From positions 1 through 64,000 of the forward strand of contig JAYELL010000108.1 in assembly GCA_034717495.1 (NCBI GenBank): 64,000 nucleotides of DNA. Reading direction: 5' to 3'. The notes under the pieces were generated by a model that was not told the DNA's origin, searched no databases, and worked only from the letters and a program-made list of their open reading frames with translations. Both the position numbers and the translations under genes were made by a program. This DNA is from Chloroflexota bacterium. Its GTDB lineage: Bacteria > Chloroflexota > Anaerolineae > JAAEKA01. Of the stretch, positions 1 through 54,636 are shown in pieces (within the stretch, counting starts at the first letter, position 1; each line of letters starts with the position of its first letter).

Positions 1-127
1 CGAACGGGATCTTGTTTTTCTGGCTGATGCGAGGCCAGTAGGGGCAGTGAATCGTGTGCAACTCCATGCTGCGTGGGTTGCCATATACGTAGTCTTCCGA
101 CTCCTTCACCGCCGTGATTTCGATCGT
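1..127. repeat. Direct repeat copy A (identical to 2151-2277)
   Basis: Every base of 1-127 matches 2151-2277 at an offset of 2150; divergence begins at 128. It encodes the same stretch of the shared C-terminal module in both peptidase genes. The repeat may continue left of the window. Confidence 0.95.
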
Positions 128-1990
128 TAGTTGCCCGGTCAGAACACCATCCTGCTCCTGCCCGATGATAATGGGGTAAACCTTCAAGTGCTCGGCCTGG
201 TGCGAAAAATCGATTTCCATGGTGACGGTGCCCTGTTGAAGCACATCCAGGGGGAAGTCGATCAACTGGCCCTTTTTGCCGCCCGGCAGAGCCAACCGCA
301 CCCAACGGCTGTTCTGGCTCACTGATGTGACGTGGTGGGAGGTCACACTCGTGGTCGCCAACCACACCGGAACTCGAAGTTGTATGTCGGTGTCTTCAGG
401 CAATTGGCTGGCATCGATGCTAAGTGTATTGCTCGACGGTGTCATGCCGCCTCGAACCAGAAAACTGGTCTTGGTTTTCCCTCCGGGAACGGCGTTCTGC
501 GGACTCACGTTGCGTTGGCCGACGTTGTTGTCATAGCGTACCAGAAGACTATGGTCGAGTTGGCCGGAGTAAATCTCCGGAAGGCTGTGATCGGCTGGTG
601 CGCTGGCAATCGCGAGCAGGCATTCATGATCAACGATCTGCGGTGTCCAGATGAAAGGTCCCACCGGCACTGAAGCACCGGCCGCAATCGAACCCGGGTA
701 GGAGATCGTTCCCATCTGCTGGAAGTGAGTGGGAAAAAGCATGGCGGTGCCCGGGTCGCAGTGGAATGCCTTCACTACGATACCAGACGCGGGTTGTGTG
801 CCGCGATTGTGCACCTGCACGTACATGTAGTTGGGCACGCCATTGATCGGAGCCTGGTGGCCGGCGGCAGGATCCTCACCGAAGTTTGGGTCGGTCGGAT
901 CAGTCGGATCGGCAGGGGGTGGGTTGTTGCGTACCCAGATGTCCGGACTCTTCCAGTGTGGCGACATGCTGGGCTGGTCGCCCGTGTCCGTGGCGCTGTC
1001 GCGGATGAAGAGATTCACCGCTGAGCCGCTTTCATCGGTGACATCAAGGCACAGATGGAGCAGTGTTGCCAGAGTCATGCGAGCCACCTGCGTCACGTAG
1101 GCGAAGTCGACCATGCTCACCGCATCGTTGCTGGTGTGATAGTGTGGGTTGTGACCTGCTTCGTAGGCTCCCGCGACGACCCACCCGCGTGCCTCGAAAG
1201 GCATGTAGTCGCTACCATAGATGTGGGAAAGCAATACGGGCATGTCAGAATAGTCTGCCGCCATCTGGGCCATGGTATCTCCCAGAGCTTGTGAGAGCTG
1301 ATCGTTGCTGCTGACGCTGTTGCCCATATCCCGCTCAATATTGATCGCATTGTCGGCGGGAGGGACACCAACCTGATCCAGGTTAATGAGCCGATGGACA
1401 TTGATTCCCCCGTCTTGCAGGTGCTGCGCGTAGGCGGTCGATCCCCAGTAGCCCTGTTCCTCGCCGGAAAATGCCGCGAACTGTACCGTGTCGCGCAGGT
1501 CAACATCTGCCAGAATGCGGGCCAACTCCAGTAGAACGGCCACACCAGTGGCATTGTCGTCCGCGCCCGGTGCCCGGTCTGTAACCCCACCCTGGACATT
1601 TATCGAATCGTAATGGGCACAGACAATAACAAGCTTGGGGTTGCTGTCGGAGCCAGGTTTGGTGCAGATGATGTTCTTCAATTGGTGGCCTTCCCGTGAA
1701 TACTGGTGGGAGACTACCGAACCGTAGCCGAAGCCGGAGAACTGACTGCTTAGCCAGGTGGCCGCCTGATCGATATAGGTCGATTGAGTGTGTCGCGTGT
1801 GGTAACTGCTCAGGTGGTGCACCCAATTCGACAGGTTTGTCTGGGACACCAGATCGGTCAAAACTGCGATGAATTTGTCCGGCAGTATGCCTGTCCATTT
1901 TCGCCTGGAGACTGCCCTGGCAACGGGAGGAGCTGGCGGCGGCTGCCGCTTATCGGGTGGAGGGTAGATTTCAAGATCAAAAGTTGACAT
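1..1990 (-). CDS. M28-family zinc metallopeptidase with C-terminal shared module (3' end beyond window)
   Basis: The frame is open from the ATG at 1990 to the left edge (663 codons), so the C-terminus is missing. An AGGAG precedes the start, and an in-frame TGA five codons upstream rules out a longer N-terminus. Residues about 80-300 carry the M28 aminopeptidase signature: His126 in HYDS, Asp144/145 in GADDN, Glu177/178 in GEEQG (catalytic base plus zinc ligand), Asp205 in NLDQVG and His285 in HYHTSND. All five di-zinc ligands are present, so an active amino- or carboxypeptidase is expected. No signal peptide or membrane segment is seen; the start is Pro-rich. From about residue 325 the protein matches the C-terminal part of the neighbouring M36 protein (IRDS..DTG, SPDIWVRNNPPPADPTDP, HNRGTQ, IWTPQIVDHECLL), including the beginning of the Cys-containing tail. 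Probably co-transcribed with the M36 gene 86 bp upstream. Confidence 0.9.
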   Translation of the reverse strand, partial: MSTFDLEIYPPPDKRQPPPAPPVARAVSRRKWTGILPDKFIAVLTDLVSQTNLSNWVHHLSSYHTRHTQSTYIDQAATWLSSQFSGFGYGSVVSHQYSREGHQLKNIICTKPGSDSNPKLVIVCAHYDSINVQGGVTDRAPGADDNATGVAVLLELARILADVDLRDTVQFAAFSGEEQGYWGSTAYAQHLQDGGINVHRLINLDQVGVPPADNAINIERDMGNSVSSNDQLSQALGDTMAQMAADYSDMPVLLSHIYGSDYMPFEARGWVVAGAYEAGHNPHYHTSNDAVSMVDFAYVTQVARMTLATLLHLCLDVTDESGSAVNLFIRDSATDTGDQPSMSPHWKSPDIWVRNNPPPADPTDPTDPNFGEDPAAGHQAPINGVPNYMYVQVHNRGTQPASGIVVKAFHCDPGTAMLFPTHFQQMGTISYPGSIAAGASVPVGPFIWTPQIVDHECLLAIASAPADHSLPEIYSGQLDHSLLVRYDNNVGQRNVSPQNAVPGGKTKTSFLVRGGMTPSSNTLSIDASQLPEDTDIQLRVPVWLATTSVTSHHVTSVSQNSRWVRLALPGGKKGQLIDFPLDVLQQGTVTMEIDFSHQAEHLKVYPIIIGQEQDGVLTGQLTIEITAVKESEDYVYGNPRSMELHTIHCPYWPRISQKNKIPF

Positions 1991-2010
1991 AATCGTTACT
2001 CCTAATCAAA

Positions 2011-2054
2011 GGGGATCGGACGACGGCCGATGGCTGACCAATCGCCCGATCCCC
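2011..2054 (-). other. Intergenic stem-loop between two peptidase genes
   Basis: Nine-base inverted arms (GGGGATCGG at 2011-2019 and CCGATCCCC at 2046-2054) lie in the 86-bp gap between the M36 stop and the M28 start. Only a short T-run follows in the minus direction. A partial terminator or mRNA-stabilising hairpin inside an operon is more likely than a full stop. Confidence 0.5.
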
Positions 2055-2076
2055 TACTTCATGTTTCAAGCCGCGA

Positions 2077-4857
2077 TCAGTCGATATGGTATTCTGGCAG
2101 GCAGAAAGCGCAGCCATCGTAACCACGAGCCAGTCCGTCCTGAACTCTGGCGAACGGGATCTTGTTTTTCTGGCTGATGCGAGGCCAGTAGGGGCAGTGA
2201 ATCGTGTGCAACTCCATGCTGCGTGGGTTGCCATATACGTAGTCTTCCGACTCCTTCACCGCCGTGATTTCGATCGTCAATTGCCCGGCCAGAACACCAT
2301 CCTGCTCCTGCCCGATGACAATGGGATAGACCTTCATATCCTCGGCCTGGTGAGAGAAGTCGATTTCCATCGACACATTTTTCTCCTCACGGGTCGCCAG
2401 GGGGAAGTCTTCCAGTCGGCCGATAGCGCCACCTTCCAGGCTCAAATACATCCAGCGGCTGTTAGAACTCTGAACCTGGAAGCCGGACATGCTGGCGGCC
2501 TCATCGACCAGGGTTCGAGCCAGACGCAGGGTGAAGCTGGTATCGGAAGGCAGTTCGCTTGCGTCGATATTGAGTGTGTTGATCGAGGGATGAGTGGTCC
2601 CGCGGATCATGAAGCTGGTCTTGGTCTTGCCGCCTGGCACCGCGTTCTGCGGGCTGACGTTTCGTTGACCAACGTTGTTGTCAAAGCGCACCAGTTTCCA
2701 GTGATCGACCACACCGGAAACGGTAGCGGTGATGGCGGGATCACTTGCCCCGTTCACCACAGCGAGCAGACATTCGTGATCTACAATCTGTGGTGTCCAG
2801 ATGAAGGGGCCGATCCGCGCTGAACCGCTCGCCGGAATGGCCTGGGTAATGGTCAGCGTGCCCATGCTGTTGAAGTGGGTTGGCCAGAGCATGCCAGTGC
2901 CAGGATTGCAGTTGAATGCCTCTACTGAAAAGGTGCCGGCCTGCGCCGCTTGCGTTCCCCGGTTGTGGACGTTCACATAGAGATAGTTCGGGACATTGTT
3001 GATGGGGGGTTGGTGCCCGTCGTCCGGGTTCTCGCCGAAATTCGGATCGGTTGGATCTGTTGGGTCTGCCGGCGGCGGATTGTTGCGTACCCAGATGTCC
3101 GGGGAGTGCCAATGCACCTGGGGACTGGCATGGGCACCGGTGTCACCGGCGCTGTCGCGAATGTAGAGATCAACGTTGCCAATCTGGGTCAGGTTGGTCC
3201 ATAAGCCACGCCGACGGAAGGCATCCCAGATGACCTTTTTGTGGAGTCCGCCCGTCCGGTTGCCATCGATGGCGATCAGAGCGTTGGCCAATACCCTGGC
3301 ATGATTGAACTGGTTGGTTGAGCTCGTGTTGTCAACCACCGTGGTCAACATCTCCATGTAGGTGCTGATTACTCTGTTTGCAGCTGCTTCACGCACAGCG
3401 GCGATGTCGGAGTCCCCGCCGATGTTGAGGAAGATATCCCACAGAGCCGTCGCCAGCACATTGCCCTTGAGGTACATGCCATAGCCCGCGAAACCGCTGT
3501 CGTCGAAGCGATGGCTCAGGTCCATCCGCCTGGTGGGTCCCCAGTGGCTCGTGCCACTGAAGTGCTGATCCCAGGGCATGGCTTCCTCGCGCTGAAACTG
3601 ATGCACATTGAAACGGTCCAGCCATGCTGCCGCCAGGAAGTCGTTAAAGCCCTCTTCGTAGCTGGTTTGTTCTGATCCGATCAGGTAGTGCAATGCATGC
3701 CCATACTCGTGCACAATCACACCTGGATCTGCGGCATCTGGTACACCACCTTCGCCAAAGGCGATGAACATGGAACCACTGACCGGCACTACGAAATGGG
3801 AGTTATCCTCGCCTGAGAACCCCTGCGGATCAACTTCGATGGCGCTGGTTGCGGCGTTGTTATAGGCCGTGAGATTGCGATCCCGCAGGTACCTGATCAA
3901 TTCGTCCAGATAGAAGTAGACCATGACGTTCAGGAGCTTGCGTTTCTTGGCGGTGAATTTGAAGTTGCTCGTAGCCTCTGGCGGAGCGAATGTCGGCGAT
4001 TCCCGCTCGGCGTTTTTCACCCATGTGCCTTCCAGCTTGTACTTGCCGTTGGAGGGCGATGTCAGATTGAGAAGATCGACTTCCTTCAATTCATTGTTGA
4101 GGGTGCTTTCGAGGGTGCTCCAACTCAGGTTGTCGTTCTGGGAACTGCGAATTGGATCTGGCCAGAAGACGTTTCCCTTTAGAGTGGCATACCGGCGCCG
4201 GTCCTTGACTGCAACCAGCTTACCGTTGCTCGCGTCTACCAACAGCTCCCACTGGCCATCTGGTCCGGTGGTATCCATGAATACTTGCCAGACCAGGTAA
4301 GGTTGCCCCACGGTGCCTTCGGTCAGGCCGAGCATTTCACCGCGAATGGCTGGAGCATTCATGACACCATCCGCGTCCACCGGGCGATGGCGGTAGACAA
4401 AAAGATTGGGTGTCCCGAATTCCAAGGTATCGAAACGCGTCTCGAAACGGTCCGTCAGTTGCTCAATGACGGCGTCTTCTGTCAATTGGGCTTGCGCCGG
4501 CCCCAACGAGGGTGGTAGATCGTAGTCGATACCGTTGACCGCCGAGCTGATCTGATTGTCCGATTTGCGCATCGAGACCACCATCTCAGCCCCGTAAACG
4601 GGCAGCGTATTGTGTTCCTGCTGGTAACGTACGGAGCGCGTCGAACTGCCCTCCACGGTCTCCGTTTCCGTGAGGGAAATTCCATCCAGTTTGAACAGGT
4701 CCTTGTTGGCTTTCAGAAACTGCTCTGGTGCCTTTTTGGCTTCGAGCGTAGCGCCCGCCGGCACTTCTACCAGTTCTGTTCCGAAGAAGCTGCGAACGGC
4801 GCCCGTTTCTTCATCGTAGGTCGTTCTCATGTCCTGGCTGGGGTTTAGCTTCGGCAT
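2077..4857 (-). CDS. M36 fungalysin-like metallopeptidase with FTP propeptide and shared C-terminal module
   Basis: Start chosen at the ATG at 4857 (926 aa) because AAAGGAGATC precedes it; an ATG at 4896 would add 13 residues and still give no signal peptide. An FTP/PepSY-like propeptide occupies about residues 30-230. The catalytic domain has the zinc motif HEYGH at 383-387, with Glu402 in EEGFND as the likely third ligand, as in M36/thermolysin-fold enzymes. From about residue 580 comes a Pro/Asp-rich linker and a CARDB-like beta-rich module nearly shared with the downstream M28 protein. The last 43 residues contain His884, His887, Cys888 and a CxxC at 916-919 in an Ada-like zinc-site spacing. 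Family members are normally secreted zymogens; the lack of a leader here is odd. Endopeptidase activity is well supported by motif; the cellular location is unknown. Confidence 0.9.
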   Translation of the reverse strand: MPKLNPSQDMRTTYDEETGAVRSFFGTELVEVPAGATLEAKKAPEQFLKANKDLFKLDGISLTETETVEGSSTRSVRYQQEHNTLPVYGAEMVVSMRKSDNQISSAVNGIDYDLPPSLGPAQAQLTEDAVIEQLTDRFETRFDTLEFGTPNLFVYRHRPVDADGVMNAPAIRGEMLGLTEGTVGQPYLVWQVFMDTTGPDGQWELLVDASNGKLVAVKDRRRYATLKGNVFWPDPIRSSQNDNLSWSTLESTLNNELKEVDLLNLTSPSNGKYKLEGTWVKNAERESPTFAPPEATSNFKFTAKKRKLLNVMVYFYLDELIRYLRDRNLTAYNNAATSAIEVDPQGFSGEDNSHFVVPVSGSMFIAFGEGGVPDAADPGVIVHEYGHALHYLIGSEQTSYEEGFNDFLAAAWLDRFNVHQFQREEAMPWDQHFSGTSHWGPTRRMDLSHRFDDSGFAGYGMYLKGNVLATALWDIFLNIGGDSDIAAVREAAANRVISTYMEMLTTVVDNTSSTNQFNHARVLANALIAIDGNRTGGLHKKVIWDAFRRRGLWTNLTQIGNVDLYIRDSAGDTGAHASPQVHWHSPDIWVRNNPPPADPTDPTDPNFGENPDDGHQPPINNVPNYLYVNVHNRGTQAAQAGTFSVEAFNCNPGTGMLWPTHFNSMGTLTITQAIPASGSARIGPFIWTPQIVDHECLLAVVNGASDPAITATVSGVVDHWKLVRFDNNVGQRNVSPQNAVPGGKTKTSFMIRGTTHPSINTLNIDASELPSDTSFTLRLARTLVDEAASMSGFQVQSSNSRWMYLSLEGGAIGRLEDFPLATREEKNVSMEIDFSHQAEDMKVYPIVIGQEQDGVLAGQLTIEITAVKESEDYVYGNPRSMELHTIHCPYWPRISQKNKIPFARVQDGLARGYDGCAFCLPEYHID
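2151..2277. repeat. Direct repeat copy B (identical to 1-127)
   Basis: Second copy of the 127-base exact repeat, inside the C-terminal module of the M36 gene. Flanking sequence in the module is similar but diverged, which points to recent gene conversion or duplication limited to this part. Confidence 0.95.
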
Positions 4858-4998
4858 TATTTGATCTCCTTTGTCGGAAAAGGGTTGACTGCTCATCTGT
4901 GGCCACGAGGAATGCTCTGTGTGAAATGTTTCTCCTTTCTCTTCTTTAAACGAGGAAGCCTCACGTTTTCAGGCGAATGGCGTGTACCAACGATCATG

Positions 4999-5035
4999 TT
5001 GACTTGTCTACTTGTTTACTTCTCCACTTCTCCCT
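4999..5035. repeat. TTGTCTAC-type octamer tract
   Basis: Consecutive octamers TTGTCTAC, TTGTTTAC, TTCTCCAC and TTCTCCCT at 5004-5035. They belong to the same repeat family as the inverted array at 10170-10304. The tract lies in the probable 5' untranslated region of the M36 gene. Confidence 0.7.
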
Positions 5036-5097
5036 TTCCTGAGTATAACAAATCAGTGCCTACAAAATGTCCACACCGGTTTTTTACCAGGAATCCT

Positions 5098-5126
5098 TTG
5101 ACAATTGCCGTTAATTGGCATACAAT
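5098..5126 (+). promoter_or_regulatory. alaS sigma-70 promoter
   Basis: TTGACA at 5098-5103, a 17-bp spacer and TACAAT at 5121-5126. The start point is predicted near 5133, giving a leader of about 66 nt. Confidence 0.8.
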
Positions 5127-5133
5127 TGAAGCA

Positions 5134-5150
5134 GCCGTCCTCTGGACGGC
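5134..5150 (+). other. 5' leader stem-loop of alaS
   Basis: GCCGTCC-TCT-GGACGGC, a perfect 7-bp stem beginning at the predicted transcript 5' end, followed by six T's at 5157-5162. It could be an attenuator or an RNA 5'-protecting hairpin. Confidence 0.55.
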
Positions 5151-5198
5151 GCGCAGTTTTTTAGGTGCAGTCAACAAAAAGGAAACGGGATTTCAGGT

Positions 5199-7916
5199 AT
5201 GAAGATCGCCCCACCGCGAACAGCGTCCGATGTTCGCCAGGCTTTTTTGGATTTCTTCGAAGAATATGGCCACACCCATGTGGCGAGTGCGCCCCTGGTG
5301 CCTCAAGGGGATGATACCCTGTTGTTCGTCAACGCGGGGATGGTCCAGTTCAAGGATACCTTCCTGGGCCTGGAAAAACGCCCCTATGATCGGGCCGCGT
5401 CGAGCCAGAAGTGCATGCGCGTTAGTGGCAAACACAATGATCTCGAAGAGGTCGGTCCATCCCCAAGACACCATACCTTTTTTGAGATGCTGGGAAACTT
5501 CTCCTTTGGCGACTATTTCAAACGGGATGCCATCTTGTTCGCCTGGCAATGTCTCACCAGGGTGTTTGCCATTCCCGAGGATCGTCTGGTCATCACTGTC
5601 TTTAAGGATGACGATGATGCATTGGCCGTATGGCGTGACGAAATCGGTATTCCCCTCGATCGAATCATGCGAATGGGGGAAAAGACCAACTTCTGGTCGA
5701 TGGGCGATACCGGCCCAACAGGCCCAACAAGTGAGCTGCACTATGATCAGGGAGCGGATGCCTGCACCTGCGGCGACCCCAAGTGCAGCGTGGCGCTGGA
5801 TAACGAGTGTGAACGCTGGCTGGAAGTCTGGAATCTGGTTTTCATGCAGTACAACCAGCATGCCGACGGCACCCGCACGCCGCTGGCCCAACATGGTGTC
5901 GACACCGGCATGGGTTTCGAGCGGCTGGTCAGTATTCTCCAGGGTGTCGACAACAACTACGACACCGATGTCTTTCAACCGATTATGCGGCGCGTCCAGG
6001 AGATGCTGAGACATAGTGACCAGCAGATGCAGGCTGAGACGGTCGCCTATCGCGTGATTGCCGATCATTCCCGGGCGATCACCTTCCTCATTGCCGACGG
6101 GGTCCTGCCTGGCAATGAAGGCCGTAACTATATCTTGCGCCTGGTCCTGAGGCGAGCGGCCAGGTTTGGCCGGCTGCTTGGTTTTAAAGAACCCTTCCTT
6201 TCCGACGTGTCGCAAGTAGTGATCGATACGATGGGCGGCGTCTACCCGGAAATCGTCGAACGTTCACAGTTCATTCTGGACACGATCCGCTACGAGGAGG
6301 AGCGATTCCTTCGCACGCTGGACGTGGGTCTTAGCCTGGTTGACAATCTCGTCCAACAGCTAACGGAGCAGGGCGAGACGACGATGCCTGGCGACGAGGT
6401 ATTCAAGCTCTGGGATACCTTTGGTTTCCCCTTGGACCTGACCCGCGATATCGCTGAGGAAAGCGGCTTGACCATCGATATGGTGGGCTACCAGAAGGCT
6501 CTGGAGAAACAGCGCAGGCGTGCCCGGGCAGCCGCCCACTTTGGTGCGGCCGAGGGCGAGGATCTTTCAGTATACGTGCAAGCTCTCGATCGTTTGCCCG
6601 ATGGTGGCGTCGATCATCTTTATCTGTTGGACACGCAACTGCCAGCCGAGGTCGCAGGCATTGTCGCCGACGGCGTCCTGGTCGACCAGGTGGAGGCGGG
6701 GCAGGAGGTGGAAATCATCCTGTCAAGCACCCCCTTCTACGTGGAGGCCGGCGGTCAGGTGAGTGACACCGGAGCCATTAGCGAGGATTGCGATCATCCC
6801 CGGTGGCAGGTGGATGTGAGCGACACCCGCTGTCCCATTCCCGGTGTCATCGTTCATGCCGGACGTGTGGCGCGTGGCGTGGTTTCCACCGGCGATCGTG
6901 CGATGGCCGCGGTTGATCTGGCGCGCCGGGCAGATATAGCTCGCAATCATTCCGCCACCCACATCCTGCACAGTGCACTGCACGGGGAGTTGGGGGATCA
7001 TGCTCGCCAGGCGGGGTCATTGGTGGCACCCGACCGCTTCCGCTTTGATTTTACCCATCCCTCTGCGGTCAGCGATGAACAATTGCAGCGCATCGAGCAG
7101 GCGGTCAACGACGCCGTATTCAGGAATGATCCGGTGACCGCCCGGTGGACTACCTACCGGGAAGCACTGGATAGCGGCGCGATGGCGCTCTTCGGAGAAA
7201 AATACGGCGACGAAGTGAGGGTAGTGGAAATCGGGCCAGCGAGCGACAAGTGGAGCAAGGAGCTTTGTGGCGGCACTCATGTCAGGAACGCCGGTGAAAT
7301 CGGCGCATTCCATATTGTCAGCGAGGGCAGCGTCGGTTCCGGCGCCCGCCGCATTGAGGCGGTGACTGGTCGCGGCGCACAGCAGTACCTGCAGGAACGT
7401 CTTGCGCTTCTCAAGCATACCGCAGCTATCCTGGGAGTACCGGAAGGGGAGGTGGCCCGAAGAGCAAGGGCATTGGTCGATCAGGCCTCGGCTCAACAAA
7501 AGGAGATCACTCGTCTCCAGGACAGGTTGGCTCGTCAGGAGTTCGAAGGCTTGTTGAACCAGGTCGTCCAGGTAGATGGTATCGACGTGCTGGCTGCCCA
7601 GGTAAATGCTGCCAATGCCAACATCATGGCTACGATGACCGATTGGTTCCGCGATCAGTTGCCTTCCGGTGTGGTTGTCCTGGGTGCAGCGATCAACGGC
7701 AAACCCAATTTCATAGCTTCTGTAACGGATGATCTTGTGACAAAGGGAATGCATGCCGGAAAGCTGGTTAAAGCGGTGGCCGAGCAGGTAGGCGGCGGCG
7801 GTGGTGGCCGGCCTACCATGGCCAGGGCAGGCGGCACAGATTTGGCAGGATTGCAGTCAGCCATTCGGTCGGTACCTGGGCTGGTTTCGGAACAACTCTC
7901 CGACTCCCAGGGTTGA
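5199..7916 (+). CDS. alaS: Alanyl-tRNA synthetase
   Basis: 905 aa, slightly longer than the usual 870-880. The cytosolic enzyme charges tRNA-Ala for translation. The class II catalytic core is at the N-terminus (SSQKCMRVSGKHNDLEEVG; FFEMLGNFSFGDYFK), followed by the tRNA-recognition region. The editing domain has zinc-site residues His584/His588 (NHSATHILH) and Cys690/His694 (CGGTH), and the C-Ala domain ends in the usual Gly-rich GGGGGGRP stretch. The ATG at 5199 follows a purine-rich AGGAAACGGGA. It is driven by a near-consensus promoter and followed after 16 bp by the baseplate-J-like gene, then by ruvX and mltG. An alaS-ruvX-mltG order recurs in many bacteria, which supports the identification. 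Confidence 0.98.
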   Translation: MKIAPPRTASDVRQAFLDFFEEYGHTHVASAPLVPQGDDTLLFVNAGMVQFKDTFLGLEKRPYDRAASSQKCMRVSGKHNDLEEVGPSPRHHTFFEMLGNFSFGDYFKRDAILFAWQCLTRVFAIPEDRLVITVFKDDDDALAVWRDEIGIPLDRIMRMGEKTNFWSMGDTGPTGPTSELHYDQGADACTCGDPKCSVALDNECERWLEVWNLVFMQYNQHADGTRTPLAQHGVDTGMGFERLVSILQGVDNNYDTDVFQPIMRRVQEMLRHSDQQMQAETVAYRVIADHSRAITFLIADGVLPGNEGRNYILRLVLRRAARFGRLLGFKEPFLSDVSQVVIDTMGGVYPEIVERSQFILDTIRYEEERFLRTLDVGLSLVDNLVQQLTEQGETTMPGDEVFKLWDTFGFPLDLTRDIAEESGLTIDMVGYQKALEKQRRRARAAAHFGAAEGEDLSVYVQALDRLPDGGVDHLYLLDTQLPAEVAGIVADGVLVDQVEAGQEVEIILSSTPFYVEAGGQVSDTGAISEDCDHPRWQVDVSDTRCPIPGVIVHAGRVARGVVSTGDRAMAAVDLARRADIARNHSATHILHSALHGELGDHARQAGSLVAPDRFRFDFTHPSAVSDEQLQRIEQAVNDAVFRNDPVTARWTTYREALDSGAMALFGEKYGDEVRVVEIGPASDKWSKELCGGTHVRNAGEIGAFHIVSEGSVGSGARRIEAVTGRGAQQYLQERLALLKHTAAILGVPEGEVARRARALVDQASAQQKEITRLQDRLARQEFEGLLNQVVQVDGIDVLAAQVNAANANIMATMTDWFRDQLPSGVVVLGAAINGKPNFIASVTDDLVTKGMHAGKLVKAVAEQVGGGGGGRPTMARAGGTDLAGLQSAIRSVPGLVSEQLSDSQG

Positions 7917-30920: not shown

Positions 30921-33900
30921 TCAGGGACGAATTCGCCCTGGCGCGTCGGGTGACATGGCAGGGGGCGGCAGGGTGTCCACGGGACGGACACTGTCGGGTA
31001 TGATGAGGTCGTCGGGATTCATGAAGTACTGCGGGTCGCAATGGCCTCCCCAGCCGTCGGCTCGATCGAAGGGGTAGATACGGATTCCGAAATGCAGGTG
31101 GGGACCAGTGCTGCCACCGGTGTTGTCCGACGGGCCAAGAGGCTGGCCGCGAGATACCTGATCGCCGATCGATACGGTGACTCGCTCCATGTGTCCGTAG
31201 ATCGATTCTCCCCACTCATGGGTCAGTTTCACAAAGTTGCCGTAGCCACCCTTGTCGAAGCCGGCCTGGGTAACCTCGCCGTCGTCGGTTGCCCGGAGGT
31301 TTGTGCCGTTCGGAGTGCCGAAATCGAGGCCATTGTGGCCGCGCAGGGCGACGCCGTTGTAGCTGTATTGTTTGTAATACTGAGGGTTTTTTCCAAATAG
31401 CTGGGTTACTCGCCATCGCCCTTCGAAGGGTGTGCCCAGGATGATGCGATCCTGAAACTGAATGGGAACCAGGAAACGCTCTCCTGTCGCACCCACCTGA
31501 ACGACCCATCCCTCGATCTTTTTGCCGTCAACGTCTGCCTGAATGTGCCACCAGACCAGAAGGTCCGCCTCTTCCGGACCAGCTGTGATTACAGCCTCGC
31601 TGCCGGGCGGTAAAACACCCAGGACATCGGAATCATTCTTGTCTGCATATCCGGGCGACCGGCGCATATTCACCCCTTCGATGTAGGCATTGTAAACGCT
31701 GTTACCAGGCTGGAAGGTGGCCGTGGGCACAGGTTTATCGGTCGAGGGCGCTGGAGGTTGGCTGGTAGCCAGCAAAGTGGTGCCATTGGGACTGATCTCG
31801 GCAACCCACCCCTCGATGGCCTGATCTTCCAGGGTGAGGAAACGAATGTGCCACCAGGGTAGCTCATCCTTCTCGGTAGGGCCATCGAGTACCGTTATCT
31901 CAGCGCCGAAGGGCAACTCGAAGAGCACATCATCACCGTCTTTGTTTACATAACCTGGAGATCTTCGGGCATTCAAGACCGTGGCCGCGAAAGCGGAATC
32001 TCCGGGGGTAATACGCTTGGGTTCGGGCGACGGTACAGGTTTGGGTTGCGGTTCTACCTCCGGATCGATGGGTTGAGGCTCTGGTGGGGAAGGGGGCACC
32101 GGTTCGGGATCCGGCGGGATCGCGTCGACTCGCGGCAACACGGTCAGCACCGGGGTACCGGCAAGGGAGGTGGCGGCCAGCCAACCTTCCCAGGCTCGAC
32201 CACCGGCGGCTGTGTAGCGGATGAGCCACCAGGTCAAACCGTCGGCGTCCTGAGGGCCAGCGACGATATCGATTTCAACCTCAGGTGGGATCTCATGGAG
32301 AATATCTGAATCGGGTTTATTGCGCCAACCGGGCGCCAGGCGCAGATAGATAGTGGTTGTTGTTTTTGCCCGATCGCCGGGAATCATTTCCTCCAGCGAG
32401 GGCGCTGCTGGCCTCGGCTCTTGGGGTTCTGGCCCTGGCTCGGGAACAGGTTGCGGCACCGGATCGGGAACCGGATTTGTTGGCGTCGGCTCCGGTCGCG
32501 GTGGCATTGGGATGTCGCGCACGAGTAGTACAGCGCCTAGCGGGCCTGCCTGAGCCGCCCAACCATCGAATCGATTTCCGAACTGGCTGACAAAGCGGAT
32601 GCCCCACCAGAGAAGATTGTCGGCAAACTCGGGTCCGCGCACGACGTCAACCCGAATCTCGCCGGGGATCTCGTAGATGATATCCCCTGGCGGTTTGTTG
32701 CGATAGCCGGCCGTGCGTCGCAGCACGACTGTCTCGCGGGTGATAGCCGGCTCGCCAATTCGCAGCGTTGGTTCCGGCCTTGGCACGGGAACCGGCACCG
32801 GTACAGGCGCTGGTTTCGGCGGTTCTGGCACAGGAACCGGTTCTGGTTCTGGCACCGGCTCCGGGCTGGGTGCAGGTTGGGGAGCCGGTACGGGCGGCGG
32901 GGTGGGCGCTGGTCCAGGTGTTGGCTCCGGGGAAGGCATTGCCACCAGGAGGATTGTTCCATCGCTGTAGCTCTCGGCCGCCCAGCCCGCAAAGGGATTG
33001 CCGTAGCGACTGATGTACTTGACGCGCCACCACGTTACGCCCTCTTTCTGCTCCGGCCCTTCAGAGATCGTCAGCTGCTGTCGAGCGGGAACATTGATAA
33101 TGATGTCGTTGGATGGTTTGCCGATGCGACCGGCAGTTCGTCGCAATGGGATAACAGCGGTGGTGGTGGCCTGGTCGCCGATTTCAATAGGCGCCGGTTC
33201 TGGCTCGGGCGCCGGCACCGGCTCTGGCTCGGGCACAGGTTCTGGTTCCGGGACCTCTGCTCTGGGGGAAAGTAATACCTTGCCACTGGCGCTCTTTTCG
33301 GCTGCCCAGCCATCTACCGGGCGGCGTCCCGGCTCCACAAAGCGGATTTGCCACCAGATCAAACCGTCGACCTGCTGCGGGCCCTTGAGGACAGTTGCCT
33401 CGCTGTCAGGAACCAAATGAAATAACACGTCGTCGTTAGGCTTGTCCCGATAACCAGGCGATTTTCGAACAGTTACCTCTTGCCGGGCGACAATGCGCAT
33501 TCCCGGCTCCAGCGCGGAAGGCAGGGATGGCTGTGGTTCCGGCGCTGGCGGTTCGGCGGGCCTGGTTTCCACCAGCAGTGCTGCCCCGGTAGCACTGGCT
33601 TGAGCAACCCAACCATCGACGGAAACGCTCTCGTCGCGATGGCGAACCCGCCACCATACCAGGCCGTCGGCGATCTTCGCGCTCGAAAGAATGGTGAACT
33701 CGCTGCCTCGGGGCAGTTTCGCGACGAGGTCATCCTCAGGTTTGTTCAGGTAACCGGGGCTCTTTCGAACAGACAGAAGGTCTGCGGCAAAAACATGCTG
33801 GCCCAATTCGAACTTGGCAGGAACGATCAAACTCTCGCGCCAGCGGTAGTCATGACCCAGCGCCTGGCGGAAGTCGTCGACGACTCCCTGTTTGCCTTCA

Positions 33901-34913
33901 ATGACCCACCTGTCTTTCCGGGGCCATCGGTAGAGGATCAGTGAGCGTATCTGTTGATGGCCGGACCGGCGATTCCAGTGGTCAATCTCACCGTATGCCC
34001 GCCGGACCCAGCCGTTGTTCTTGTTGAGCCACGGCACGTCCTGATCGGTTTCAGTGACGTAGCAAGGCAGGTGGCGCATGGAGCTGGGAACGGCTTCCAG
34101 GAAGTCGCGATAGGTACGGAAGTTGTACTGGTAGTGCTCAAACGGGGCCCCCATGCGACGATTGGTATAGATTTCCGCCGGGTCGGAGGAGTGGGTATAG
34201 GCATGAATGGTGATGCCGTCGCAGTTGCGTGGACCGATGGCATTCAGGATATCACGGAAGTATTGTATCCAGTCGCCCTGGGAATTGCCGCTGTAGCTCG
34301 TCTGATTGTTCCAGGGCGCCACGGCGCCAACCAATACCTGGTCATCTTTGTGGCCTGGCACTCCGTGAATCGCATCGCGGCAAAGCTGATAACAGCGCGC
34401 GTACTTCTGAGGGGTGATGACCTCGCCAGGATTGACGATGGAACTGCCTGCCCGGCCGGGTGGGAGCAAGGCGCTAAAGCGTTCCGGAAGGCCCCGCGAG
34501 CGGGAAACCGGATCATCATCAACCGGGTCCACCGGGCTGGAAACAGGGCCCCGCGAGTGATTGATTTGAACCCCCGGGCGCTCGACGGCATAGTTCATCT
34601 CGTTGCCGATGATCCATATTTTGCAACCGTTGCTGGCGCCAACAAAATTGGCGCAGCGCTGCGCAAAACTGGTGTAGCGGCTGCTATGGGGAATGGTGCC
34701 GGCTGGCTCGTAGCCGTTGTTGATGCGGCAGATAACGCCAATATCTTGGTTACTCCAGGAAGAGAAATCCTTTCCCCCGCGATCATTTGATTCGGAGCCG
34801 ATTGCTTCAGTGAACAGTACCCAACCCGGTTTCCCGGCCTCAAGCATATGGCGTTCGCCGCCGGGCTCATGGATACCGAAAATGTAGGGCGAGTCAAACA
34901 GAGGGCGAGGCAT
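30921..34913 (-). CDS. Giant modular wall hydrolase: GH-A-like domain, seven SH3-like repeats, M23 peptidase
   Basis: 1330 aa. Residues 1-360 look like a TIM-barrel glycosidase of clan GH-A type: IFGIHEP, acid/base candidate Glu105 in IIGNEMN, ITIHAYTHSSDP and nucleophile candidate Glu289 in YVTETD. From residue 371 there are seven SH3-like repeats of about 80 residues. Each has an RRSPGY..K..DD block, a P.GSE..V..GP..DGL.WW.IR core and GWVA..S..G..LL; Pro/Glu linkers separate them. The last 170 residues are an M23 (lysostaphin-like) peptidase with HNGLDF and GPHLHFG zinc motifs. It looks like a peptidoglycan or wall-polymer hydrolase. There is no signal peptide, and an in-frame TAG two codons before the ATG excludes one. 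GGAG precedes the start. Exact sugar substrate unknown. Confidence 0.85.
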   Translation of the reverse strand: MPRPLFDSPYIFGIHEPGGERHMLEAGKPGWVLFTEAIGSESNDRGGKDFSSWSNQDIGVICRINNGYEPAGTIPHSSRYTSFAQRCANFVGASNGCKIWIIGNEMNYAVERPGVQINHSRGPVSSPVDPVDDDPVSRSRGLPERFSALLPPGRAGSSIVNPGEVITPQKYARCYQLCRDAIHGVPGHKDDQVLVGAVAPWNNQTSYSGNSQGDWIQYFRDILNAIGPRNCDGITIHAYTHSSDPAEIYTNRRMGAPFEHYQYNFRTYRDFLEAVPSSMRHLPCYVTETDQDVPWLNKNNGWVRRAYGEIDHWNRRSGHQQIRSLILYRWPRKDRWVIEGKQGVVDDFRQALGHDYRWRESLIVPAKFELGQHVFAADLLSVRKSPGYLNKPEDDLVAKLPRGSEFTILSSAKIADGLVWWRVRHRDESVSVDGWVAQASATGAALLVETRPAEPPAPEPQPSLPSALEPGMRIVARQEVTVRKSPGYRDKPNDDVLFHLVPDSEATVLKGPQQVDGLIWWQIRFVEPGRRPVDGWAAEKSASGKVLLSPRAEVPEPEPVPEPEPVPAPEPEPAPIEIGDQATTTAVIPLRRTAGRIGKPSNDIIINVPARQQLTISEGPEQKEGVTWWRVKYISRYGNPFAGWAAESYSDGTILLVAMPSPEPTPGPAPTPPPVPAPQPAPSPEPVPEPEPVPVPEPPKPAPVPVPVPVPRPEPTLRIGEPAITRETVVLRRTAGYRNKPPGDIIYEIPGEIRVDVVRGPEFADNLLWWGIRFVSQFGNRFDGWAAQAGPLGAVLLVRDIPMPPRPEPTPTNPVPDPVPQPVPEPGPEPQEPRPAAPSLEEMIPGDRAKTTTTIYLRLAPGWRNKPDSDILHEIPPEVEIDIVAGPQDADGLTWWLIRYTAAGGRAWEGWLAATSLAGTPVLTVLPRVDAIPPDPEPVPPSPPEPQPIDPEVEPQPKPVPSPEPKRITPGDSAFAATVLNARRSPGYVNKDGDDVLFELPFGAEITVLDGPTEKDELPWWHIRFLTLEDQAIEGWVAEISPNGTTLLATSQPPAPSTDKPVPTATFQPGNSVYNAYIEGVNMRRSPGYADKNDSDVLGVLPPGSEAVITAGPEEADLLVWWHIQADVDGKKIEGWVVQVGATGERFLVPIQFQDRIILGTPFEGRWRVTQLFGKNPQYYKQYSYNGVALRGHNGLDFGTPNGTNLRATDDGEVTQAGFDKGGYGNFVKLTHEWGESIYGHMERVTVSIGDQVSRGQPLGPSDNTGGSTGPHLHFGIRIYPFDRADGWGGHCDPQYFMNPDDLIIPDSVRPVDTLPPPAMSPDAPGRIRP

Positions 34914-51660: not shown

Positions 51661-53091
51661 CTACTGTCCGAAGTTCTCCAGTAGATATTCGATTGCCTTT
51701 TCCAGCTGTGGGTCTCGGTCTTCGGCTCGATCCTCCAGGGATCGTTCCACCTGAATATCCGGCACCAGGCCTGCACCGTGGATCTGCTGATCGGCCGGCG
51801 TAAACCAGCGGGCAGTCGTAACGCTGAGCATCGACCCATCGCTCAACTCATGGGGCACCTGAACCGACCCCTTGCCAAAGGTGGTCTCGCCGGCCAAAAC
51901 GCCACGACTGGTATCCTGTATGGCACCGGCCAGTATCTCGGAGGCACTGGCGCTGGCCTCGTTGACCAGAACGACAAGTGGGATGTCAAGGGCGCGTCCA
52001 TTCCCACTGGCTTCGTAGACCTGTTCCTCTCCGTCGCTGAATCGTTCTACCAATATGGGCCCATCCTCGATAAACTCACTGGAGATATCGACGGCGGTGC
52101 GCAAAAAACCGCCAGGATTGCCTCGGAGATCGAGAATAAGCCCGACCGGCTCCTGCTCCTGCAATTCATCCAGGGCATCTCTTAGTTGGCGGGTTGACGG
52201 CGTGCTGAATTCCCCTAACCGGATGTAGGCGATATTGTTGTCCAGCATTTCATATTCGACCGCTGGAATGGATATCCGGTCTCGCTTCACGGTGATCTCG
52301 CGTGATTCCTGTTCGGGCGAACGAACTAGAAGAACGACCTTACTGCCCTTGGGGCCTCGGATCAGCTGGATGGCATCCTGCAGGCTCATGTCGGTCACAT
52401 CGACATCGTCAACCGCCAGAATGATGTCGTCGCGGCGGATACCGGCTTCCCATGCCGGCTGGCCTTCGAAGGGTTCCACGATCAGGACGCCGCCATCCTC
52501 GGCCGTATCCACCCGGGCACCAATGCCCTCGAAACTGCCGTTGAGCCCCTCGTTGAAGAACTCAGCTTGCTCCGGGTTTCGCAGGAATGTGTAATCATCT
52601 TCCAGGGCAAACGTCACGCCATTGATAGCTCCGTAAATCAGAGGGCTGGGCTCGGGCAGAGTGCCGAATTGCTGCTCCAGCGTTTCAACGACCGCTTCCA
52701 GGATGTCGTCAGAAGTGTCTTCCAGATCCAGAGACTCGTCTTGCTCATACTCGGCCGCACGCAACATTCCGGTGACCAGGGCGCCCACCATTTCCGGTGT
52801 CTCTGGCAGCTCACCGTAAAAGTCTTCGTTCAAAGCATCCCAGGCCTCCCAAAGCAGATCGAATTCTCTGGGAAGATCGCTATTGGCAGTTATCCGGGGA
52901 AGGTTCATGCCCTCTGGCCCGGTCCGTTCAAAGGGCATGTCTTTCAGCGATGCAATCTGCGGTGAGGTGACTCTGCCCGTGCCGAAACCGGCACCAAAGC
53001 CGGCGAAAAAAGTCATGAACCCCAGGCCCGCGATTACGGCGAGGACAAGGATCCATTTCCAGGTATTGTTGCTATCGTTGTTTTCCATCAA
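51661..53091 (-). CDS. S41 C-terminal processing peptidase (CtpA-like), copy 1
   Basis: 476 aa; ATG 53091, with a second ATG at 53088. One N-terminal transmembrane helix at about 12-35 anchors it outside the cell. A helical N-terminal part follows, then a PDZ domain at about 185-265 (VEPFEGQPAWEAGIRRDDIILAVDD), then the S41 protease core with LILDLRGNPGGFL and catalytic VNEASASASEIL (Ser), FGKGSVQ (Lys). CTPs trim or degrade exported proteins from the C-terminus. It is 18 bp downstream of a paralogue, and the pair precedes smpB-ssrA. Confidence 0.94.
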   Translation of the reverse strand: MMENNDSNNTWKWILVLAVIAGLGFMTFFAGFGAGFGTGRVTSPQIASLKDMPFERTGPEGMNLPRITANSDLPREFDLLWEAWDALNEDFYGELPETPEMVGALVTGMLRAAEYEQDESLDLEDTSDDILEAVVETLEQQFGTLPEPSPLIYGAINGVTFALEDDYTFLRNPEQAEFFNEGLNGSFEGIGARVDTAEDGGVLIVEPFEGQPAWEAGIRRDDIILAVDDVDVTDMSLQDAIQLIRGPKGSKVVLLVRSPEQESREITVKRDRISIPAVEYEMLDNNIAYIRLGEFSTPSTRQLRDALDELQEQEPVGLILDLRGNPGGFLRTAVDISSEFIEDGPILVERFSDGEEQVYEASGNGRALDIPLVVLVNEASASASEILAGAIQDTSRGVLAGETTFGKGSVQVPHELSDGSMLSVTTARWFTPADQQIHGAGLVPDIQVERSLEDRAEDRDPQLEKAIEYLLENFGQ

Positions 53092-53109
53092 ATCCTCGGT
53101 ATCTCGTTG

Positions 53110-54324
53110 TCATCCCTGCTGATTGAGCAGGTGTTTGATTGCTTCTTCAAGGGGAGCATCTCGCTCGTCCTCATGGGATACTTCCAGATCGGGAGTCAGC
53201 CCGATCTCGTTGATCTCGTGGCCATTAGGTGTCAACCAGCGAGCAACTGTCACGTGAATGGATGAACCGTCGCTGAGATCGTGGACCAGCTGTACCGATC
53301 CCTTGCCGAAGGTCTTCTCACCGATCAATTTTGCTCGTGCACGGTCTTGCAGCGCGCCCGCCACGATTTCCGCCGCGCTGGCCGTTGCTCCGTCGACCAG
53401 GATCGCCATGGGCCAGTTGGGGGCCTTGTTGCCCCCTGAAACACGGAACGTTTGTTCACTGCCATCGCTGTGGTGTTCAAATAACACGACCCCATCCTTC
53501 AGAAAGCGGCTAGCCACGTCAACAGAAGCCTGAAGAAGGCCTCCACTGTTGTTTCTCAAGTCAACTATCAGATGCCGGGCTTCCTGATCTCGCAACTCCG
53601 TAAGCGCCTGATCCAGCTCATTGGCCGTTCGATCGCTAAACAGGCTGATAGCAACGTATCCAACCTGGGGCACCTCTTCGAGCATGCGCCATTCCACAGA
53701 GGGCGTCTCAAGGCGTTCGCGGGCGATAGCCATCGTAAGCAGTGCCGGCTCGTCACCGCGCCGGATTTGAAGGCTTACTTGCTCGCCAACCGGGCCGCGT
53801 ATCAGGGCTACGACATCGTCGGCGGTCATATCAGGTTGGATGGTCGTGTCATCGACCGAGACAAGGATGTCTTCCTTTTCAATGCCGGCTCTGTCCGCTG
53901 GCCGGTCTGGCATAGGATCGAGCCGGATATTTCCAGATTCGTCTCTGGTGACCCAGGCGCCAATGCCACCGAACTCTCCGCTTAGTTCTTCACGCTCCCG
54001 TTGCCGTGGCTGTGGTTCGATGAAGTAAGTGTAGGGGTCCTCGTACTCTTGTGCGAGCCCCTGGATCGCTCCGTACGTTCGATGTTGGGTATCCGGTTGG
54101 TCACCAAAGAAATCTCGTTGTAAAATATGCCAGGCTTCCCAGAAGACATCGAAATCAGTATCCTGCAGGTCGGCCTGGGTTTCCGCGAATCCAACGCTGG
54201 CAACCGACAACGGATCCCGACCCGAGCCGGTAATGAGGGCGTGGGTGCCGAAGCCCGCCAGGAAGATAAGCGCAATGGTTGCCAGAACAAGACCGGCAAT
54301 GGAAAGTGTGCGTAACAGCTGCAT
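53110..54324 (-). CDS. S41 C-terminal processing peptidase (CtpA-like), copy 2
   Basis: 404 aa from the ATG at 54324; a TTG at 54333 adds three residues. One N-terminal helix (LSIAGLVLATIALIFLAGFGTHAL), then a helical part with FWEAWHILQRDFFG, a PDZ domain at about 110-190 and the S41 core (LIVDLRNNSGGLL, catalytic Ser in VDGATASAAEIV and Lys in FGKGSVQ). Both catalytic residues are intact. It is a tandem paralogue of the downstream gene at clearly diverged identity, so an old duplication. Its own promoter lies 47 bp upstream. Confidence 0.94.
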   Translation of the reverse strand: MQLLRTLSIAGLVLATIALIFLAGFGTHALITGSGRDPLSVASVGFAETQADLQDTDFDVFWEAWHILQRDFFGDQPDTQHRTYGAIQGLAQEYEDPYTYFIEPQPRQREREELSGEFGGIGAWVTRDESGNIRLDPMPDRPADRAGIEKEDILVSVDDTTIQPDMTADDVVALIRGPVGEQVSLQIRRGDEPALLTMAIARERLETPSVEWRMLEEVPQVGYVAISLFSDRTANELDQALTELRDQEARHLIVDLRNNSGGLLQASVDVASRFLKDGVVLFEHHSDGSEQTFRVSGGNKAPNWPMAILVDGATASAAEIVAGALQDRARAKLIGEKTFGKGSVQLVHDLSDGSSIHVTVARWLTPNGHEINEIGLTPDLEVSHEDERDAPLEEAIKHLLNQQG

Positions 54325-54636
54325 GGAAATCAACGAAATCGAGTATGTTTTGGTTAATTTTAATCAACTGATTGTAGCATACAAGAATCGGTGGCGCAAA
54401 ACACCGACCAGCAGGGCAATGCAGCGCCTCAAGTATACCTGGATGGCGAGGAAAATGGGGTGACCCAGCTTCCCGAGCGCTGCACCCTCGGTACGTCCGG
54501 ACAGGCTATTTGTTCGGGAGCAGGAGAATGCGGGTGGTTATACCAGGTCTTCGTGTAGTAATTTCCGCTATATCTTTACACTTTGATGCTCCTGACTAAA
54601 CGATAGGCTTTGCGAAACGGATTTGAAGGGTGGTTT
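54325..54636. other. Divergent intergenic region between S41 and TlpA genes
   Basis: 312 bp. Contains the S41 promoter and an AT-rich stretch (54340-54380) with an inverted repeat GTTAAT-TTTA-ATCAAC at 54353-54368 near the predicted start. No gene or clear plus-strand promoter is seen. Confidence 0.6.
54371..54399 (-). promoter_or_regulatory. Promoter of the S41-S41-smpB unit
   Basis: Minus strand TTGCGC (54399-54394), 17-bp spacer, TACAAT (54376-54371). Confidence 0.5.

Follow-up and report, generated by a model that had tools for sequence, protein, structure and literature searches.

A C-terminal module with a predicted Ada-type finger, shared by adjacent M36 and M28 metallopeptidases of a Chloroflexota bacterium, as a candidate docking tail

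The DNA analysed here (the window) is a stretch of 64,000 nucleotides from a Chloroflexota bacterium of the class Anaerolineae (GCA_034717495.1) and covers positions 1 to 64,000 of contig JAYELL010000108.1 (C108). At the start of the window lie two metallopeptidase genes that belong to different families and carry the same C-terminal module. The features at this locus are the following.

2077..4896, minus strand: gene for an M36 (fungalysin-type) metallopeptidase with an FTP/PepSY-like propeptide and the C-terminal module
3175..4857, minus strand: propeptide and catalytic region of the M36 protein, with HEYGH at residue 396
2080..3174, minus strand: shared module, M36 copy, 365 aa
2635..3174 (approximate), minus strand: module domain A, an N-terminal collar with SPDIWVR and a CARDB/Ig-like beta sandwich
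2257..2634 (approximate), minus strand: module domain B, a second Ig-like beta sandwich
2080..2241, minus strand: module domain C, a putative Ada-type zinc finger with predicted ligands H897, C901, C929 and C932 (M36 protein)
2144..2277, no strand: 134-nt exact repeat, M36 copy, shared with window 1-127 and the end of contig C34; putative core of gene conversion
1..127, no strand: M28 copy of the same repeat, 127 nt at the contig start
2..1990, minus strand: gene for an M28 (LapA-like) metallopeptidase that also bears the module, cut off by the contig edge
2..1018, minus strand: shared module, M28 copy, first 339 codons, with the remainder on contig C34:44990-44797

The M36 protein is 939 aa long when read from its first ATG (4896) and 926 aa from the conserved start, a downstream Met at 4857 that is the start position of its orthologs and was also used in the initial annotation. 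Pfam searches identified Peptidase_M36 (4.8e-7; 29.8 bits with a cut-off of 23.3) and FTP (1.9e-5) domains in this protein, and the HEYGH motif is intact. The M28 gene lies 86 nt downstream on the same strand in an operon-like arrangement, and the window encodes 663 of the probable 687 aa of its product. This protein matched Peptidase_M28 (3.3e-34; 118.8 bits with a cut-off of 21.3) and its metal-site motifs, read by eye, are intact. As a comparison, the M28 part scored 84 bits against the Legionella LapA aminopeptidase, which is below the equivalog cut-off of 600. A gene reading as alaS diverges from the M36 gene at 5199. Two other places in the window, both on the minus strand, were noted by eye. 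One has an apparent tandem pair of adjacent PDZ/S41-type peptidase ORFs (51661-54333), and the other encodes a 1330-aa protein, apparently without a Sec signal, in which SPGY..KP occurs as a repeat several times and the C-terminus is M23-like (30921-34913).

A BLASTP comparison of the two proteins showed that their tails are 67% identical over 341 aa (E = 2e-150), and the same comparison gave no alignment between the catalytic parts. These data confirm the original observation that adjacent metallopeptidases of different families share one C-terminal module of more than 300 residues. The M28 copy is incomplete in the window because position 1 is the end of contig C108 (C108:1). The assembly breaks there because of the 134-nt exact repeat, 127 nt of which are present at each of the two contig ends, C108 and C34, which have an exact end-to-end overlap of 120 nt. 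Since there are two ways into the repeat and two out, and one pair is already joined within C108, we infer from this overlap, by elimination, that C34 is joined to C108. C34 would then continue the M28 frame (...GYDGCAFCLPAYNTG) and provide the last 24 codons of the gene (ARVQDGLARGYDGCAFCLPAYNTG), with the stop at C34:44799-44797. With this end added, the full module would be about 365 aa in both proteins. The source genome contains these two copies only; a third match is the missing M28 end.

An AlphaFold model of the module, calculated with 15 sequences (mean pLDDT 82.9), predicts two beta sandwiches followed by a small domain at the C-terminus. In this model, domains A and B are all-beta and their fold matches are to generic Ig-like pairs with TM scores of only ~0.2, and matches to transglutaminase and integrin were set aside as generic Ig-like. 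In neither window protein did the module match a Pfam family, and the M28 copy gave no match up to an E-value of 5. Likewise, no CARDB match was seen in these proteins up to an E-value of 1, and the curated cut-off of 22.7 bits was not reached. The evidence for a CARDB-like (PF07705) domain A comes from relatives, where L022 scored 31.6 bits, above the cut-off of 22.7, and L085, L029 and L024 matched below it. By these matches, the CARDB-like beta region described initially is correct for the first domain, which resembles CARDB and the DUF11/NEW3 Ig-like group. The window modules differ from CARDB in having the conserved SPDIWVR collar and then domain B and the finger. By contrast, the segment NNPPPADPTDPTDP, initially taken as a linker between the catalytic domain and the module, is an insertion inside domain A that lies about 30 residues after the module start and is absent from most distant relatives.

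To examine the small C-terminal domain, the last 68 residues were modelled alone (pLDDT 83.0). The top four PDB matches of this model were all to the N-domain of Ada (1u8b, TM 0.69, rmsd 1.6) and only Ada structures were found at a probability above 0.6, yet the E-values were just 0.1–0.6. A profile made from 11 fingers ranked Ada chains first with E-values of 0.003–0.0075 (0.003 for 1adn), and the next match, which is unrelated, had an E-value of 0.8. The cut-off of 23 bits for the Ada family PF02805 was reached by a thermonuclease finger (23.9 bits) and not by the fingers of relatives L083 (14.6 bits) and L107 (12.5 bits). His, Cys, Cys and Cys at the ligand positions are invariant in 11 of 11 fingers and have the same x3 and x2 spacing as in the Ada N-terminal zinc domain (PF02805; PDB 1adn, 1u8b, 1wpk, 1zgw). 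From the model and the profile, we consider that the tail of the module has an Ada-type fold, and the fold matches together with the invariant ligands predict that it binds zinc. The Cys-containing tail that had been noted before thus appears to be an Ada-type zinc finger. The finger does not have the four Cys ligands of Ada, which include the methyl-accepting Cys38. A His aligns to Cys38 and the other three Cys are kept and, because of this His, Ada chemistry is not expected. The setting is also different, since Ada is a DNA repair protein and the finger is at the C-terminus of enzymes. C-terminal Ada-type fingers of the same H, C, C, C type are found on thermonuclease and MBL-fold proteins of bacteria and Methanothrix (L071, L073, L079, L096 and the plasmid hits H6, H7 and H11); these proteins have no A and B domains and, in Anaerolineae, their fingers end in a GY.PC..C type motif.

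We surveyed 396 genomes of the class and found a match to the A+B profile (E 1e-6) in 62 of them, representing 47 of 222 genera. The finger profile (1e-4) matched in 15 genomes of this survey, mostly in thermonuclease or lipoprotein-like proteins with a wider Ada-type finger. The Pfam domains found ahead of A+B, with or without a finger, were C1A, C13, S8, VWA, Gln_deamidase_2, Tyrosinase and CAP. The module therefore follows catalytic or binding domains of seven or more unrelated families, and tyrosinase, protein glutaminase, CAP and VWA among them are not peptidases. This supports the mobile module suggested in the initial annotation, which had named restriction to one family, or being an ordinary extension of a catalytic domain, as findings against it; the range of attached families speaks against both. 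An M36-like HEFGH enzyme with a related module is found in Mesorhizobium, and a tyrosinase version is from a MAG named Terriglobia. Plasmid-borne relatives occur in Mesorhizobium, Paracoccus and Methanomethylovorans hollandica DSM 15978, where the plasmid encodes a C13 domain followed by A, B and the finger. The two parts of the module are also found separately. The finger without A+B is behind astacin and one S8 protein, and this astacin scored 271 bits against Legionella LegP (equivalog cut-off 300). Many relatives carry A+B without a finger, so the finger is dispensable for whatever A and B do.

The M36-M28 operon with both tails was found in two Methanothrix MAGs (L082, L083) and one Chlorobiaceae MAG (L084), where the taxa are those of the MAG names. 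A loose echo of this pair is seen on the Mesorhizobium onobrychidis plasmid pOM4 (L108, 6297-11650), where genes for an M36-like module protein, a phosphoglycerate mutase family protein and a module-less M28 peptidase are grouped. A search of viral contigs and phages found no relatives, so there is no sign of a phage module, and no description of the module was found in the open-access literature. The initial annotation further suggested that a dedicated partner for export or docking could recognise the module. The eight loci that we inspected share no recurrent neighbour; their flanks differ and appear by eye to be housekeeping or unrelated genes, and they offered no candidate for such a partner.

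We compared fourfold degenerate sites between the two tails of each operon. In the window pair, 23 of 24 such sites are identical in module codons 301–365 versus 39 of 96 upstream. Identity is also raised in the L083 pair over these codons (14/20 vs 39/99) and in the L082 pair over a longer tract, codons 186–365, that includes domain B (65/83 vs 41/74). There is no clear excess in the L084 pair (4/7 vs 16/68). Trees of codons 301–365 rejected a grouping of all M36 tails (p-AU 2e-4) and a grouping of all M28 tails (p-AU 5e-7). In the domain A tree, the four M36 copies group together (65/99), and forcing the window pair together was not rejected at the 0.05 level (p-AU 0.07). The plain reading of these patterns is that gene conversion has homogenised the 3' ends in the window and L082 pairs. 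It would be a further step to attribute this to selection for a shared partner, and neighbouring homologous genes can also convert each other neutrally, with no partner in common.

The enzymes to which the tail is attached look like secretory enzymes, and we searched them for Sec signals using a home-made hydrophobicity rule with uncurated start codons. The rule recognised no Sec signal in the 14 finger-bearing enzymes, of which the L082 M36 is N-terminally cut, whereas it found Sec or lipoprotein-like signals in nine of nine proteins bearing the wider Ada-type finger. By the same rule, only 4 of 43 A+B proteins without a finger, some of them N-terminally cut, were positive, so the absence of a signal is a trait of most carriers found and not of the finger alone. 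As a comparison, substrates of the T9SS are unrelated exoenzymes that share a C-terminal beta domain, which in outline the module resembles. The M36 protein does not have the marks of a T9SS substrate, since no Sec signal was recognised and its M36 part matches the T9SS-dependent M36 model (NF038113) weakly, at 33 bits with a cut-off of 885 and with the best stretch N-terminal.

We propose that the tail, about 365 residues long, is an interchangeable C-terminal module that is not catalytic and serves in docking, with a zinc finger at its tip, and we consider the chance that this is correct to be about even. The two tandem Ig/CARDB-like sandwiches A and B, joined directly to the enzyme, would hold up the finger as the contact tip. 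Since the M36 endopeptidase and the M28 aminopeptidase are encoded in one operon and would display near-identical tips, both could be recruited to a common partner or surface, and endo- and exo-cleavage could follow one another there. In this picture, domain A would have diverged with each enzyme, and gene conversion would have kept the tip alike between both genes. Of this proposal, docking, a common partner and the joint action of both peptidases are what we infer.

It is possible, but rather unlikely, that the module does no docking and is simply a stabilising or folding appendage spread by domain shuffling. Beta-sandwich appendages are common on hydrolases, the module is fused directly behind the catalytic domains and A+B often occur without the finger, all of which would fit such a role. 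However, the module accompanies seven or more domain folds that are unrelated to each other, VWA among them, and so cannot be adapted to any single one. In the fingers sampled, moreover, the four metal ligands are invariant.

We think it unlikely that the module binds a protein or glycan substrate outside the cell or on its surface, after the enzymes are set free by lysis or in some other way. The CARDB-like domain A (31.6 bits in L022, cut-off 22.7) and the Sec-like signals of some A+B carriers (L026, L029, L088) are consistent with this, and the enzyme types that bear the module are mostly secretory kinds. By contrast, the hydrophobicity rule recognised no Sec signal in the finger-bearing members, and Pfam searches of the window proteins and relatives matched no glycan-binding family.

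Because Sec signals were missing, we also looked for an extracellular contractile injection system (eCIS), which could load the enzymes as effectors or release them with the particle. In the source genome, a run of genes at C34:2787-27896 (L112, L113) reads by eye as an eCIS cluster. Its sheath (PF04984) and Pvc16_N (PF14065) genes were matched by profile, and a 1351-aa protein with DUF4157-like motifs and AAA-like and baseplate-like genes were recognised by eye. Between this cluster and the probable M28 stop lie ~17 kb with unrelated genes, a distance for which no test had been set in advance, and the peptidases are thus not encoded within the eCIS locus as would be expected of eCIS cargo. 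Pvc16_N was found in 4 of 19 genomes or records tested, including G660, which has the M36-M28 pair, and G127, which has the glutaminase version. In G394 (L118, C549), the gene for a module-bearing protein (4346-6850) is separated from Pvc16_N by 1.5 kb, and a sheath-like gene is close by. Together with the contrast in Sec signals between the finger-bearing enzymes (0/14) and the proteins with the wider finger (9/9), these observations favour such a route. Against this, Pvc16_N was not found in the finger-enzyme genomes G659, G661, G662, G023, G349 and G462, some of which are incomplete MAGs, and the proximity on C34 depends on a join drawn from assembly overlap. For eCIS, the loading signals that are known lie at the N-terminus (PMC11297309); the module is C-terminal. 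Across the class, Pvc16_N occurs in 123 of 396 genomes and is not associated with the module, being present in 15 of 62 carriers and 108 of 334 others (odds ratio 0.67, p 0.23). We therefore reject eCIS as a general delivery route and regard loading onto such a particle as improbable in the present case.

The contig does end inside a 134-nt exact repeat, which might point to a recent duplication at this locus, or to an error of assembly, as the origin of the shared tail. We consider this extremely improbable and reject it as a full explanation, because the copies differ at 57 of 96 fourfold sites upstream of the repeat and three other genomes have this operon with both tails.

Returning to the docking module that we favour, a more specific form of it is that the finger-tipped module serves as a C-terminal address that takes enzymes without a Sec signal to one machine or surface, or anchors them there, with gene conversion keeping the tails of operon partners matched since both would have to fit the same receptor. 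We offer this speculatively and think it unlikely to be right in full. If it were, a C-terminal address would span many unrelated enzyme families in both bacteria and archaea.

Together, these data define a portable tail that, as a unit, is absent from Pfam and NCBIfam as searched and that ranges over Chloroflexota-type genomes, methanogenic archaea and MAGs named Chlorobiaceae and Terriglobia. The tails of the M36-M28 pair offer a natural case of concerted evolution between genes that are otherwise unrelated, limited to one of their ends. The tail sits on enzymes that look secretory and have no recognised Sec signal, and one tail shared by many enzymes gives a practical way into the question of how they are localised.
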